Origin: an uncultured Lachnospiraceae bacterium
GTDB taxonomy: Bacteria > Bacillota > Clostridia > Lachnospirales > Lachnospiraceae
NCBI GenBank assembly: GCA_947630485.1
Contig: CANRHU010000038.1
Coordinates: forward strand, 1 to 35,874
Reading direction: 5' to 3'
DNA length: 35,874 nt
A program made the translations under genes and the position numbers. Of the stretch, positions 3,258 through 35,874 are shown in pieces; the first letter of the stretch is position 1; each line of letters opens with the position of its first letter. Under the pieces are notes generated by a model. It saw nothing but the letters and a program-made list of their open reading frames with translations, did not search any database and was not told the DNA's origin.

Positions 3258-5090
3258 GTGGAGGAGAAGAAGGACATTTTCAAAGAGCGTTTGGCAAAGC
3301 ATTACGATGAGCTGAAATGGCTTTACATGGAATTATATAATGACGAGACCCGTTTTATCGAACTCTGCGAAAACCTGAAGGGATTTTTTGACGCCAGAAA
3401 GGTTTCTCTGAAAACCCTTGATGCGAAGCGGGAGGCGGATCCGGAGTGGTTCCGGGGAAGCGGCATACTGGGCATGATGATGTATGTAGGGCAGTTTGCC
3501 GGAAATTTAAAAGGCGTGGCCGGGCATCTGGATTATGTAAAATCCTGCGGCGTCAATTATCTGCATCTGATGCCCCTGATGGAGTCGCCGGCGGGAAGGT
3601 CTGACGGCGGCTATGCGGTGGCGGATTTCCGCAAGGTGCAGGAAGAGCTGGGGACGGTAGAGGATCTGGAAGAGCTGGCGGATCAGTGCCATGGGCAGGG
3701 GATCAGCCTGTGCCTGGATTTTGTCATGAACCACACTTCGGAGGAGCATGAGTGGGCCAGACGGGCGCGGGCCGGGGAGAAGGAGTATCAGGACCGGTAC
3801 TTCTTCTATGACACCTGGGAAATTCCGATGCAGTTTGAAAAAACCGTTCCCCAGGTGTTTCCGACGACGGCGCCGGGGAATTTCACCTGGCTGCCGGACG
3901 TGGGCAAACATGTGATGACCTCCTTTTATCCGTACCAGTGGGATCTGAATTACGCGAATCCGGTAGTATTTAACGAGATGGTTTATAATTATCTGTTCCT
4001 GACGAACCTGGGAATCGATGTGATCCGTCTGGACGCGGTGCCCTATATCTGGAAAGAGCTTGGGACCACCTGCCGGAATCTGCCGCAGGTACATACGCTG
4101 GTGCGCATGATGCGCATGATCGGGGAAGTGGTGTGCCCCGGAACGCTCCTGCTTGGAGAGGTGGTCATGGAGCCGGTCAAGGTGGCGCCGTATTTCGGAA
4201 CTGTGGAGAAGCCGGAATGCCACATGCTCTACAATGTAACCACGATGGCGACGATCTGGCATACGGTGGCGACGCAGGATGTGCGGCTTTTGAAAAAGCA
4301 GCTGGATACCGTGTACCGTCTGCCGCAGGAATATACATTTTTAAACTACCTCCGCTGCCATGACGATATCGGTTGGGGATTGGATTACGACACGCTGGCA
4401 GGCTGGGGGATGCAGCAGGTGCCGCACAAACAGTTTTTGAATGATTTCTTTACCGGGAAGCTGGATGACAGTTTCAGCCGCGGCGAACTTTATAACAATG
4501 ATCCGATTACCCGCGACGCCCGTTTCTGCGGGACGACGGCGTCCATGTGCGGCGTGGAGAAGGCCGGATTCTGCGGAGATGCGCACGGCATGGAACGGGC
4601 GCTCCGTCTGGATGTGATGCTGCATGCGTTTATGCTGTTCCAGGCCGGAATCCCGGTAATCTACAGCGGCGACGAGGTTGGCCAGGTGAATGATTATACC
4701 TATAAGGATGATCCGGAGAAGCGGATGGATTCCCGGTATATTCACAGGGGGACGTTCCAGTGGAATCTGGTGAAAAATATCGGCAGACCCGGTACGGTGC
4801 AGGAGCAGCTGTTTACGGCGCTTCGGAAGCTGGAGACGCTGCGGGCGGCGCATGAGGCGTTTGAGACCCATGCGGAGGCTGAGACCTGTGAGAGCGGAAA
4901 CGACGGCGTTCTGATGCTCAAAAGAACCGGAAAGAAGGAGACGCTGGTTGGAATCTTTAATTTCCGTCGGGAGATACAGGGCATAGACTGGGCGGAGACC
5001 GGAAGGGATCTGCTGACGGATGAGCCTGTGGGAAAAGACGGGAAGGTATGGCTTAGACCCTTTGATTTTGTGTGGGCGGTTCTTGACTAG
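3258..5090 (+). CDS. Amylosucrase-like GH13 alpha-glucosyltransferase
   Basis: A 610-residue glycoside hydrolase family 13 enzyme closest in motifs to amylosucrase (subfamily GH13_4), which splits sucrose and transfers glucose to an alpha-glucan. An N-terminal helical region (about 1-65) precedes the barrel. Visible signatures are RSDGGYAV (114-121), DFVMNHTSEEHEW (154-166), GIDVIRLDAV with nucleophile D259, LLGEV with acid/base E301, and CHDDIGW with D369. The late DSRYIHR motif matches the amylosucrase DSRWAHR block that holds the pocket arginine, and S-D-G-G holds its aspartate partner. It starts with GTG 3258 behind GAGGAAG (3244-3250). It carries no signal peptide, so it is cytoplasmic and needs sucrose import from elsewhere. 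Hydrolysis or phosphorolysis of sucrose remains possible. Confidence 0.85.
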   Translation: MEEKKDIFKERLAKHYDELKWLYMELYNDETRFIELCENLKGFFDARKVSLKTLDAKREADPEWFRGSGILGMMMYVGQFAGNLKGVAGHLDYVKSCGVNYLHLMPLMESPAGRSDGGYAVADFRKVQEELGTVEDLEELADQCHGQGISLCLDFVMNHTSEEHEWARRARAGEKEYQDRYFFYDTWEIPMQFEKTVPQVFPTTAPGNFTWLPDVGKHVMTSFYPYQWDLNYANPVVFNEMVYNYLFLTNLGIDVIRLDAVPYIWKELGTTCRNLPQVHTLVRMMRMIGEVVCPGTLLLGEVVMEPVKVAPYFGTVEKPECHMLYNVTTMATIWHTVATQDVRLLKKQLDTVYRLPQEYTFLNYLRCHDDIGWGLDYDTLAGWGMQQVPHKQFLNDFFTGKLDDSFSRGELYNNDPITRDARFCGTTASMCGVEKAGFCGDAHGMERALRLDVMLHAFMLFQAGIPVIYSGDEVGQVNDYTYKDDPEKRMDSRYIHRGTFQWNLVKNIGRPGTVQEQLFTALRKLETLRAAHEAFETHAEAETCESGNDGVLMLKRTGKKETLVGIFNFRREIQGIDWAETGRDLLTDEPVGKDGKVWLRPFDFVWAVLD

Positions 5091-32353: not shown

Positions 32354-33475
32354 TTACGGCGCTGGCGGCGGACTTCCGGTCATCCCCGCCTGAAGGCTCT
32401 GGCCTGAGGAGCTGCCGCCCGGACCGGGGGATGTATTTGTATTTCCCGACGCGCTCGAAGTGTTGCCGGACACAGTGCCGGGACCGTAGGATGATGATGA
32501 AGTGCCCGGACCTCCCGTGACTGTCCCTGTGGTGGTACCCGGGCCGCCTGTCACGGTTCCTGTCGTGCTGCCTGGGCCGCCGGTCGTCACGTTGCCGGAG
32601 GTTCCGCCTGGCGATGCCGCATAAGCGTTGTTTGCGACATAATATTCGCCCTTCGCGTTGAAGGAGTAGCTGATGCCGTCGATCGTCTTCGTGGTGTTCG
32701 CTACCATCTTTCCGTCATTGGCCGGATCCAGATAGTAGTATACGCCGCTCAGGTTCAGCCACCCGGTACACCGATGACCAGAGGCGTCAAAGTAATACCA
32801 ATAATTGTCAATCTCTCTCCAGTTGTTGGCTGTCATGCCTCCGGTGCTTGGCGACATATAGTATTTGTTGCCGTTGGAGTCGGTGAGCCATCCGGTCTGC
32901 ATCTTGCCGTCTGTATTCAGATAATAGTATCTGTCGTTGACTTTCTGCCATCCGGTCAGCATCTTCGCGTCGCTGCCGAACAGATACCAGTTGTCATTGA
33001 TGTATTTCCAGCCGATGGCCACCTCTCCGCTCGTTCCGTCTGCATAGTACCAGGCGTTGTCCATCTGCCACCAGAGCTTTGTCATGGCGCCGCTCGGCTT
33101 CATGTATCGGTAAATGTCGCCAATCCGCAGCCACCCCGTAATCATGGTGCCATCCTCGTACAGATAGTAGAAATCGCCGTTATAGATGATCCAGTCGCTG
33201 GCCACCATGACGCCGTTGTCCCGGAAATAATACCAGCTGTTATTGATCTGCTTCCAACCGATACTCATCTGTCCGGTGGTCAGATCCATGAAATAATAAT
33301 CGCCCGTGGTCGTGCGGAGCCAGCCCTTATGGATGGCGCCGGTCGTATCATCGTAATAGACCCATGAGCCGTTGGAATTATTCCAGCCAGCCTGAGCGGC
33401 GGAGGCCGGGCCTAAAACCAGCGCTCCCAGCATGCCGGCCAGAATCAGAGCCTGTGCCTTCTTCCGACATTTCAT
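32354..33475 (-). CDS. Secreted protein of choline-binding-type cell-wall repeats
   Basis: A 373-residue exported protein. The signal peptide is KCRKK plus a hydrophobic core ending PASAAQA (cut near residue 29). Residues about 30-285 consist of 11-12 repeats of 20-23 residues with the pattern GW...n.WYYf...G.M, such as TGWQKVNDRYYYLNTDGKMQ. These match choline-binding/cell-wall-binding repeats (PF01473 group). The last ~85 residues are Gly/Ser/Thr/Pro-rich with repeated TGGPGT and no LPxTG sorting signal or catalytic domain. ATG 33475 follows AGGAGG. It lies 91 bases downstream of the licC-licA fusion on the same strand, suggesting it binds the phosphocholine that gene helps make. Confidence 0.88.
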   Translation of the reverse strand: MKCRKKAQALILAGMLGALVLGPASAAQAGWNNSNGSWVYYDDTTGAIHKGWLRTTTGDYYFMDLTTGQMSIGWKQINNSWYYFRDNGVMVASDWIIYNGDFYYLYEDGTMITGWLRIGDIYRYMKPSGAMTKLWWQMDNAWYYADGTSGEVAIGWKYINDNWYLFGSDAKMLTGWQKVNDRYYYLNTDGKMQTGWLTDSNGNKYYMSPSTGGMTANNWREIDNYWYYFDASGHRCTGWLNLSGVYYYLDPANDGKMVANTTKTIDGISYSFNAKGEYYVANNAYAASPGGTSGNVTTGGPGSTTGTVTGGPGTTTGTVTGGPGTSSSSYGPGTVSGNTSSASGNTNTSPGPGGSSSGQSLQAGMTGSPPPAP

Positions 33476-33519
33476 ACCGTTTCCTCCTGAAAATTCGCAA
33501 TATATGCTCATTATTTTCC

Positions 33520-33528
33520 AGTATATCA
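33520..33528 (-). promoter_or_regulatory. Possible extended -10 promoter for the repeat protein
   Basis: On the minus strand TGATATACT gives TGn plus TATACT 45 bases before the start codon. The -35 is poor, so this would be a weak internal promoter in addition to readthrough from the upstream gene. Confidence 0.35.
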
Positions 33529-33566
33529 CAAAATCCATACAAGATATAGAGGTAAAATGAAAGATT

Positions 33567-35459
33567 TTATAACTTTTTTTGGAAGATTTTGCGATAATAT
33601 CGTTTGGCGTAGCGGTACATAATGATGGAGTATTCTCCGAACTCCTGCCCCAGGTAATGTTTGTACACGGTCCACAGGCTCCACAGGAAGCCGCCAAGCG
33701 CCGCGTAGGCATAGACAACGGTACGTTCCTCCTGCGACGGTTCCCGCTCCAGGTACAGGCGAATCAGCCAATCCACCTGTTCTTCGTCATAATAGGAGTA
33801 GATCGCACACATGGCGACGTCGATCAGCGGATCGCACATTCCTGCATATTCCAGATCGATCAGCTTCACTTCCCCGTCCGAAAGAAACAGGAAATTATCG
33901 GTGACACTGTCTACGTGGGCGAGAACCGCGGGGCGGTTCAGAGTATCCAGCAGATCCATCAGCTCCGTCATATGCCCCCGGACTTCCTTGTAATCCTCAA
34001 ATGGAATTTCGCCGAAACTTAGGCATAATGTTTCATAGAAACCGATCCGTTCCCGGATGTCGAAACGGTGCTTTACCGACGCTCCCGAACGGTGCATTTG
34101 CCGCAGAATTTCCATGCAACGCCGCATATCCGGTTCGCTGGATGCATCCGCGTTGCGGGAACCTTCATAATATTCCGAAATCTTGTAGCCTGTCTCCGAG
34201 TCAAAATAAACGACATGTTCGGAAATTCCAAGGGGCTTTAACGCTTCGAAGGCATCCGCCTCCTGGCGGCGGTTGATCAAAAGGCCGGTGCCGGGACCGG
34301 GAATCCGGCAGATATATGCTTTGCCATGGATGCGGAATAAGAACGACTGATTGGTCATACCCGCTTTCACGCATCGGATATCCCGGATTTCTGCTTCCGG
34401 GACATGGAATACCTGCGCAATCAGCTCCATGGCCTCGTTGTCGGAGCGGTTTTTGTATTTCGGATCGAATCCGCGCAGTTCCTCCAGGTTCTCGAATTCA
34501 TAGACAGAATCGGCCGGACGGAAGTTGACATAAAGCTCAGGAACGGATAAATGTCCGGGCTTTCCTGCCCACGAACTGTCCGGCGCAGACTGCGCGTCCG
34601 CCTGCCTGCCGAACCTGGCAGACGCAGTTCCATTTAACAATTCCTGATAAACGTGTTCCCAGTAGAGCTGTTCCGTTCCCGGCATATGATAATACGCCTC
34701 CAGAACCGGCAGAAACTGATTTAAAAATTCCGCGGAAAGATATGCCGGACCGTACATAACCCAGGCGTCGTGGCCGCCGCTTTGCACATCCAGAACCTTT
34801 CCCTTCTTATCATAAATAAAGCACCATTCTGATGTCTCCCCATCCATATAAGCTGCCGAATACCAGGAAGCGCATTCATAAGTATGGAACAGATTGTCCC
34901 GCATCCAGTGATCGGAGGCAAGCAGGTACATATTTTTTCCTCTCATGACATCTCTGGCGTGATAAACGGAAGCCAGATTATTTTTGGAGGAATATTCCGG
35001 ATTATAGAGAAGCTTTACACCATAGCGGTCGATCAGGTATTCAAATTTCTCCTTCAGATATCCGACTACAATGGTGATATTCTGAATCCCCGCTTCGTGG
35101 AGCTGGCGAATCTGCCGCTCGATCATCCGCTCCCCAAACACTTCCAATAGACCCTTTGGTGTCTCAAAGGTCAGCGGTACAAAGCGTGATCCGAATCCGG
35201 CAGCCAGGATAACCGCGCCGTCTACGCGGTACGGTTTCAGATAACTCTGCCCGTGCGCCGTCAGCTGATAAGAGCATTCGAGGCCCTTTTCGACGGCCTT
35301 CACCGTATGACTCACCGCTTCAAGCAGGCCGTCTGCTTCACATTCTTTTATAAGTCGGTTTGCCGTCCCCAGCGATACATGCAGCTCCCGGGCAAGCTCC
35401 CGCTGTGTAATCTGCGGCTTTTCCAATATATATCTGCAAACGATTCCTTTTCTGTCCAT
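33567..35459 (-). CDS. Winged helix-LicC-LicA fusion: phosphocholine cytidylyltransferase and choline kinase
   Basis: A 630-residue three-part protein. Residues 1-75 form a winged helix DNA-binding domain (ITQRELARELHVSLGTANRLI). Residues 80-330 are a nucleotidyltransferase with LAAGFGSRFVPLT and PKGLLEV (85-107) and VVGYLKEKFEYL. Those blocks closely resemble pneumococcal LicC, which makes CDP-choline. Residues 340-630 are a LicA/choline-kinase-type phosphotransferase with AHVDSVTDNFLF (H515, D517, N522) and LIDLEYAG (D535). So phosphorylation and activation of choline are joined in one chain. ATG 35459 follows GGAGGAG; a TTG 15 bases upstream is less likely. A related amino alcohol such as ethanolamine is an alternative substrate. 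No LicB or LicD is seen in the window. Confidence 0.85.
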   Translation of the reverse strand: MDRKGIVCRYILEKPQITQRELARELHVSLGTANRLIKECEADGLLEAVSHTVKAVEKGLECSYQLTAHGQSYLKPYRVDGAVILAAGFGSRFVPLTFETPKGLLEVFGERMIERQIRQLHEAGIQNITIVVGYLKEKFEYLIDRYGVKLLYNPEYSSKNNLASVYHARDVMRGKNMYLLASDHWMRDNLFHTYECASWYSAAYMDGETSEWCFIYDKKGKVLDVQSGGHDAWVMYGPAYLSAEFLNQFLPVLEAYYHMPGTEQLYWEHVYQELLNGTASARFGRQADAQSAPDSSWAGKPGHLSVPELYVNFRPADSVYEFENLEELRGFDPKYKNRSDNEAMELIAQVFHVPEAEIRDIRCVKAGMTNQSFLFRIHGKAYICRIPGPGTGLLINRRQEADAFEALKPLGISEHVVYFDSETGYKISEYYEGSRNADASSEPDMRRCMEILRQMHRSGASVKHRFDIRERIGFYETLCLSFGEIPFEDYKEVRGHMTELMDLLDTLNRPAVLAHVDSVTDNFLFLSDGEVKLIDLEYAGMCDPLIDVAMCAIYSYYDEEQVDWLIRLYLEREPSQEERTVVYAYAALGGFLWSLWTVYKHYLGQEFGEYSIIMYRYAKRYYRKIFQKKL

Positions 35460-35503
35460 GGCTCCTCCGTTCAATAACAGAAAGAATTATATTAATAATG
35501 AAC

Positions 35504-35532
35504 ATTATAGCATGGGATTTCCATATTCGCAA
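35504..35532 (-). promoter_or_regulatory. Sigma-A promoter of the licC-licA fusion
   Basis: On the minus strand TTGCGA (35532-35527), 17-base spacer, TATAAT (35509-35504) preceded by TGC as an extended -10. The leader is about 40 bases. Confidence 0.65.
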
Positions 35533-35794
35533 AGGGTTTCGAAAGATTCTTAAGGATTCCCGGGCTCATTCCCGTGTAATGGGGCTGAGATTGTATTTAC
35601 ATCCGTACAATCTAAGAAAGAAATTCGATTTTCGTAAGTTTTACGTAAGAAAATGCTTAGAGAAAAGTTATAGCATTTTCCGATGAAATATATTATACTG
35701 TGATTGTGATTGAGGGAAGGGTATTTTCTAGAAGGGAAATCCAAGGCTCGGATAACATTTTTAAAAGAAAGTTGCAAAAAATGTTAAAAAAGTA

Positions 35795-35823
35795 TTGATA
35801 ATTTCCATTATAGGAAGTATAAT
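35795..35823 (+). promoter_or_regulatory. Promoter of a gene beyond the right edge
   Basis: TTGATA (35795-35800), 17-base spacer, TATAAT (35818-35823). Downstream, TCCC and GGGA around GTACAA form a small hairpin, and AAAAAAGGAAA at the very edge looks like a ribosome binding site, so the start codon lies just outside. The 35533-35794 stretch is AT-rich with two inverted repeats (AAAATGCT/AGCATTTT and AACATTTTT/AAAAAATGTT) and no gene. Confidence 0.6.
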
Positions 35824-35874
35824 TACCTCGTAATGTAACCAAAACGGTCCCGTACAAGGGATCAAAAAAGGAAA

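Follow-up and report, generated by a model that had tools for sequence, protein, structure and literature searches.

The window considered here, a stretch of 35874 bases from an uncultured Lachnospiraceae bacterium (GenBank assembly GCA_947630485.1, contig CANRHU010000038.1), is one whole contig (C38) of a source genome (G000) of 3.26 Mb in 118 contigs. It ends about 0.4 kb upstream of a gene encoding a single protein in which a winged helix-turn-helix (HTH) domain, a LicC-like cytidylyltransferase and a LicA-like choline kinase are fused. The gene has an operator-like site in front of it and a gene for an exported protein of choline-binding-type repeats behind it; elsewhere in the genome the same site precedes a gene for a transporter of the betaine/carnitine/choline (BCCT) family. 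The features of the locus are these.

35504 to 35532, minus strand: promoter-like TTGCGA-N17-TATAAT (10 of 12 matches), whose last T is the operator's first base.
35469 to 35504, minus strand: probable operator TGTTCA-N25-TGAAC, a pattern found exactly, with 24 or 25 nt between the half-sites, in 79 of 80 relatives.
33567 to 35459, minus strand: fusion of winged HTH, LicC-like cytidylyltransferase and LicA-like choline kinase, 630 aa, by Pfam and solved-structure matches.
35319 to 35435, minus strand: winged HTH, aa 9-47 (PF13412 HTH_24, 8.5e-10, 38.5 bits, cut-off 21.9).
34641 to 35216, minus strand: LicC-like CTP:phosphocholine cytidylyltransferase domain, aa 82-273 (phmmer to 1jyk; D183, W267 and E321 invariant).
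33606 to 34394, minus strand: LicA-like choline kinase domain, aa 356-618 (phmmer to 4r77).
33476 to 33566, minus strand: gap of 91 nt between the fusion and the repeat-protein gene, in which no terminator-like site was found.
32354 to 33475, minus strand: exported choline-binding-repeat protein, 373 aa, with a Gly/Ser/Pro/Thr-rich C-terminal part (PF19127 4.9e-39, PF01473 3.1e-27).

The fusion lies in an open reading frame (ORF) running from 35474 to 33567 on the minus strand, with the ATG at 35459, picked to fit the relatives, as its likely start. Pfam finds NTP_transferase (2e-15), Choline_kinase (2.3e-10) and APH (1.3e-12) in it, and its best solved relatives, on distinct parts of the protein, are LicA (4r77, 1.7e-38) and LicC (1jyk, 4.7e-34). 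A first-pass annotation of this DNA, made from the letters alone, had described one protein with LicA-like and LicC-like domains, which these matches bear out; its other genomic parts (the pairing of the fusion with a repeat protein, and the repeats) also stood, but it had overlooked the N-terminal winged HTH and the conserved site upstream. In LicA, choline is described as being held by four aromatic residues, Y197, W251, W254 and Y268 (PMC4364537). These correspond to Y538, W593, W596 and Y610 of the fusion, residue positions being mapped from alignments to LicA and LicC with offsets worked out by hand, and all four are invariant in 27 of 27 fusions drawn from two clades and in 36 of 36 close fusions, as are D517, D183, W267 and E321. 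Domains and conserved active-site residues thus mark the fusion as a LicC-type plus LicA-type enzyme, with both activities predicted.

The locus was compared with the best 80 of 216 relatives from a contig scan (L210-L289), all from Lachnospiraceae assemblies including Hungatella, Enterocloster and Lacrimispora, and with a draw of 250 genomes of the family. In this draw 97 genomes gave some match to the fusion or a single domain at 1e-10, and 22, the window's genome included, were counted as carrying close full-length fusions (G205, with broken frames, was excluded). An exact TGTTCA-N24/25-TGAAC lies within 300 nt upstream of the fusion in all but one of the 80 relatives, with the half-sites 24 nt apart in 59 of them and 25 nt apart in 20, and at no other distance from 10 to 38 nt; seven additional half-site pairs have a spacing of 39-40 nt. 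Chance, modelled by first-order Markov sequences, would place such an upstream site in 0.01 of 80 loci, and the remaining 1.46 Mb (both strands) of the relatives' loci hold just two sites of 24-25 nt spacing. The sole relative without the site, L243, has upstream DNA (4600-5010) that appears unrelated to that of its near relatives. In 72 of 79 relatives the site's opening T is also the last base of a perfect TATAAT, and a site that overlaps the -10 box in this way points to repression. The promoter scan, taken over its full set, is close to chance, with 6 found where 4.8 were expected. Among the 22 close-fusion genomes of the draw, 20 have the site before the fusion.

The upstream region has further features of its own. 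A second palindrome, TTGTA-N10-TACAA, lies at 35591 to 35610; 40 of 80 relatives also have it in the 450 nt that precede the fusion, it has one further copy in the other 720 kb of their loci, and it was not found beside any of the BCCT genes examined. The right edge (35795-35874) stops just before the apparent ribosome-binding site of a divergent gene. The nearest divergent ORF starts M(R/K)KQTK in 21 of the 33 relatives listed and, by a stricter script, in 9 of 54, with 26 of the 80 relatives ending within 1500 nt of the fusion start; two such ORFs checked by Pfam are choline-binding-repeat proteins.

A second target emerges from the rest of the genome. Allowing spacers of 20-30 nt, the half-site pattern gives 17 strand-hits in the source genome, which is near the chance number (a reversed control gave 0). 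Three sites with 24-25 nt spacing occur besides the fusion's own: those on C57 and C52, with 24 nt, lie inside ORFs and were set aside, and that on C15 lies directly before a gene whose product is a BCCT transporter (PF02028 3.5e-123; TIGR00842 over its cut-off). The prediction that AT-rich second sites in the relatives precede BCCT genes was recorded before the regions were read. Of 20 regions fetched, 18 were AT-rich (19 sites), picked by eye before their genes were seen, and L140 and L141 were contrasts of mixed composition; the prediction came true in 16 of the 18, and a later placement put a BCCT gene at all 16. A later count supports the choice made by eye: spacer GC content is at most 0.17 in the fetched sites and at least 0.20 in 52 other places that match the pattern. 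A BCCT gene of the same kind is present in 20 of 22 close-fusion genomes, 18 of which have the site directly before it, and in G131 it directly follows the fusion. Where BCCT loci were placed by script (21 of 30, the other 9 being uncounted), the site was found in 19 of 21, and the two without it belong to distant-clade genomes. Twenty fusion-less genomes, three of them with a distant BCCT and some with nucleotidyltransferase-type matches, yielded 50 pattern places, none as AT-rich as the fetched sites (lowest spacer GC 0.25 versus at most 0.17). The BCCT transporter may be the choline importer of the pathway, in the role of LicB.

The same arrangement recurs in a different position in a distant clade of fusions, with about 40% identity, of which 16 genomes were examined (six regions, L302-L307, yielded no fusion by script and were left out). 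Here the half-sites, again 24-25 nt apart, span the ribosome-binding region, and the right half falls on the predicted start codon; the site is exact in 9 of 16 genomes and within one mismatch in 15 of 16, G090 being the miss. HTH residues S29, G31 and N34 are invariant in all 27 fusions of the two clades. Half-site, spacing and these residues are therefore common to both, which fits one HTH family reading one half-site. Between fusion and BCCT gene, distant-clade loci also carry a free-standing second nucleotidyltransferase gene (L290 7883-8806, L291 5008-5727, L294 4529-5260).

Several observations weigh against a choline-dedicated fusion that controls its own gene and the transporter gene through this site. 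Within the set of 22 close-fusion genomes, an exact site is lacking upstream of the fusion in G244 and G185 and upstream of the BCCT gene in G178, and a search at 1e-40 gave no such BCCT for G132 and G185. LicD genes were not found to be preceded by the site, nor do two AT-rich site regions in G046 lie before BCCT genes. In the distant clade the right half-site is partly fixed by the Met-Asn start of the protein, and in the window's fusion two aspartates of pneumococcal LicC, D105 and D192, are replaced by Ala and Glu. Finally, three genomes (G114, G048 and G063) have a site-bearing BCCT gene and no fusion in their assemblies. The gene leuA, next to the fusion in the window, is absent from G114 and cut by a contig end in G063, and in these two the absence of the fusion is likely to be an assembly gap; G048 retains leuA, with a repeat-protein gene next to it.

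In a different account the operator of the fusion and BCCT genes is real but bound by a separate regulator, the fused HTH having another role or being a relic. The site-bearing BCCT genes of all three fusion-less assemblies would suit such an arrangement, as would the retained leuA of G048. The state of leuA in G114 and G063 speaks against it, as does the invariance of S29, G31 and N34 across two clades that have the same half-site and spacing, and no common separate HTH gene was noticed, though no search was aimed at one. We consider a separate regulator unlikely and favour binding by the fusion itself.

As to G046, it holds three extra AT-rich copies of the site: one (L130, 3112) overlaps the start of a 238-aa ORF, and two (L131, 2953-3064) lie between ORFs, with an ABC-permease-like ORF adjoining. 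These are possible further targets.

What the activated choline would be used for is suggested by the company the fusion keeps. The first-pass annotation had pointed to the next gene on the same strand as encoding an exported protein of choline-binding-type repeats, and had read the pairing as a surface label together with a protein to bind it. The gene is as described, with PF19127 and PF01473 repeats and an N-terminus that is signal-like as judged by eye, and the pairing is a recurrent one: of the 79 relatives with enough downstream sequence, 74 have a repeat-protein gene behind the fusion in the same orientation, at a median gap of 116 nt. Its start is taken as the ATG at 33475, the listed TTG start at 33718 being an in-frame extension. 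The solved choline-binding proteins 2bib, 2v04 and 6jyx match the protein, and a Pfam scan found no domain in it besides the two kinds of repeat. Repeats of this type are also found in glucan-binding enzymes and toxins, and both readings were tried. Large clostridial toxins supply the top matches among solved structures, through their repeats, but the repeats are all that is common and no other Pfam domain was found, so a toxin-like reading was rejected; a glucan-binding reading, for which TIGR04035 matches below its cut-off, was set aside too, although the repeats may have affinity for glucan. Like pneumococcal choline-binding proteins, the partner has PF01473 and PF19127 repeats over their cut-offs; it differs from them in having no further Pfam domain and, in most orthologues, a conserved C-terminal tail.

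That tail, L-x-(P/A)-G-x-T-x-GP or variants, was recognised by pattern in 54 of 73 complete copies. The window's own copy (32354-32400, minus strand) ends in a variant of it, and the tail is absent from all the other eight repeat-type ORFs listed for the source genome.

The first-pass annotation had also made its proposal of phosphocholine decoration depend on a licD gene elsewhere in the genome, and four LicD-family genes are present there, none of them in the window. The genome further contains 34 PF19127 repeat matches spread over many contigs. LicD alone is weak evidence for phosphocholine because 155 of the 250 family genomes have it. By eye, the LicD genes of the source genome neighbour an IspD/TarI-like gene on C12, a TagD-like gene on C60 and heptose-type genes on C15 (neighbourhoods L038 6087-11283, L039 8633-10292, L040 and L041), and these LicD proteins may therefore transfer other groups. 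The idea that LicD proves phosphocholine is weakened by this frequency and by the CDP-alcohol-type neighbours on C12 and C60.

The association of LicD with the fusion bears on a second alternative, namely that CDP-choline goes into membrane phosphatidylcholine instead of a surface glycan, by the CDP-choline route described for Treponema denticola (PMC7368946). LicD is present in each of the 22 close-fusion genomes and in 133 of the 228 others; 20 or more PF19127 matches are likewise found in each of the 22, against 36 of the 228. The PF19127 counts per genome saturate, only 26 candidates having been scored, and Fisher tests made on these comparisons ignore shared ancestry. In addition, LicD is found in the fusion locus itself in three relatives. 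In L290 the genes for the fusion, a second nucleotidyltransferase, BCCT and LicD share a strand with those for a membrane protein that matches no Pfam family and an amidase-glucosaminidase that bears choline-binding repeats; L292 joins the fusion to BCCT, a polysaccharide-flippase-type protein and LicD, and in L293 the fusion and BCCT genes face those for a repeat protein and LicD. On these co-occurrences a phosphatidylcholine outlet is improbable, and a LicD-dependent surface glycan remains the destination that we favour.

The substrate may be questioned as well: it could be another amine such as ethanolamine or, for the cytidylyltransferase domain, aminoethylphosphonate as in PntC, the 2-aminoethylphosphonate cytidylyltransferase (6pd1). 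The Glu at the LicC D192 position is fixed in the fusions and is also found in PntC (PMC6697681), an invariant Tyr replaces LicA E213 in the kinase domain, and LicC W136, kept in 36 of 36 close fusions, is Ser in six distant fusions. Against this, all four choline-pocket aromatics of LicA are invariant, the co-regulated transporter is of the BCCT kind, and the match to LicC (1jyk) is much stronger than that to PntC (4.7e-34 versus 1.9e-07). PntC shares a related nucleotidyltransferase domain and the Glu, and differs in its much weaker match and in being fused to an aminotransferase where the window's protein is fused to a choline kinase. A substrate other than choline seems quite improbable. 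The half-sites are inverted repeats, and in the distant clade they are found in the leader or on the start codon, which would suit an RNA hairpin in place of a DNA operator. Such a hairpin is hardly credible, for in the close clade the left half-site starts inside the -10 box and would hardly be transcribed in full, and a stem of 6 pairs with a 24-nt loop would be weak.

Taken together, these observations make it probable, as far as sequence comparison can tell, that the fusion is a NadR-like self-regulating enzyme which keeps choline uptake and activation in step with supply, for the LicD-dependent placing of phosphocholine on the surface. In such a scheme the kinase domain would phosphorylate choline and the cytidylyltransferase domain would make CDP-choline, which would serve LicD enzymes in attaching phosphocholine to a surface glycan; the repeat protein, co-expressed with the fusion, could dock there. 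The winged HTH would bind a pair of TGTTCA half-sites separated by roughly three turns of the helix; with the half-site centres some 30 bp from each other, one dimer could hold both. The bound sites would cover the promoters of the fusion gene, with the repeat-protein gene behind it, and of the gene for the BCCT choline-type importer, and binding there would block transcription. Binding would depend on a ligand from the pathway, be it choline, phosphocholine, CDP-choline or CTP, so that import and activation would follow supply.

Phosphocholine on bacterial surfaces is recognised by C-reactive protein and natural antibodies. If the scheme is true, gut Lachnospiraceae control this epitope by a single protein in which the sensing and the processing of choline are combined, and the system offers a handle on the timing of phosphocholine display by gut Clostridia. 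The claim is directly testable, as it concerns one protein, one 36-bp site and two promoters.

Some of these elements have been seen before. Treponema denticola reportedly has LicC-type and LicA-type activities in one protein, which is not known to include an HTH. The two fusions share LicC and LicA in one protein and differ in the product, phosphatidylcholine in T. denticola, and, as far as is known, in the HTH. With the Lic-1 pathway (licA, licB, licC and licD) of Streptococcus pneumoniae and Haemophilus influenzae the system shares LicA- and LicC-related enzymes, LicD in the genome and choline-binding-type proteins; it departs from it in having LicC and LicA in one chain together with a DNA-binding domain, and in the BCCT gene with the same site, licA and licC being described as separate genes in pneumococcus (PMC7368946). 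The terms fusion, Lachnospir- and Clostridi- are absent from the main text of a survey of phosphorylcholine genes in bacteria published in 2023 (PMC10434233). The enzymes, LicD and the choline-binding repeats are of known kinds; a literature search, with most subscription journals outside its reach, did not find a DNA-binding LicC-LicA fusion, nor such a DNA-binding head with an operator and a BCCT target.

The nearest parallel in plan is NadR of the Enterobacterales, which is described as combining an N-terminal HTH, an NMN adenylyltransferase and a ribosylnicotinamide kinase in one chain and repressing transport and synthesis genes (PMC12421817). The fusion likewise has an HTH, a nucleotidyltransferase and a kinase in one chain and a conserved site before both its own gene and that of a transporter; it differs in the pathway, and repression by the fusion is a prediction. 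No NadR chain is among the PDB matches to the fusion (1e-3; profile search 1e-5), a direct comparison with NadR not having been made, and NadR is therefore treated as an analogue and the fusion is not filed as a member of its family. Overall, we think it reasonably probable, somewhat better than an even chance, that phosphocholine decoration in Enterocloster, Hungatella, Lacrimispora and other Lachnospiraceae is switched by a self-regulating protein with three functions, repressor, choline kinase and cytidylyltransferase, which follows the NadR plan with different domains. One operator would couple choline import, activation and a choline-binding surface protein; its position would have shifted from the promoter to the start codon, with the spacing of 24-25 nt preserved. 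The fusion would then join NadR as an example of a single chain that unites repressor, nucleotidyltransferase and kinase.

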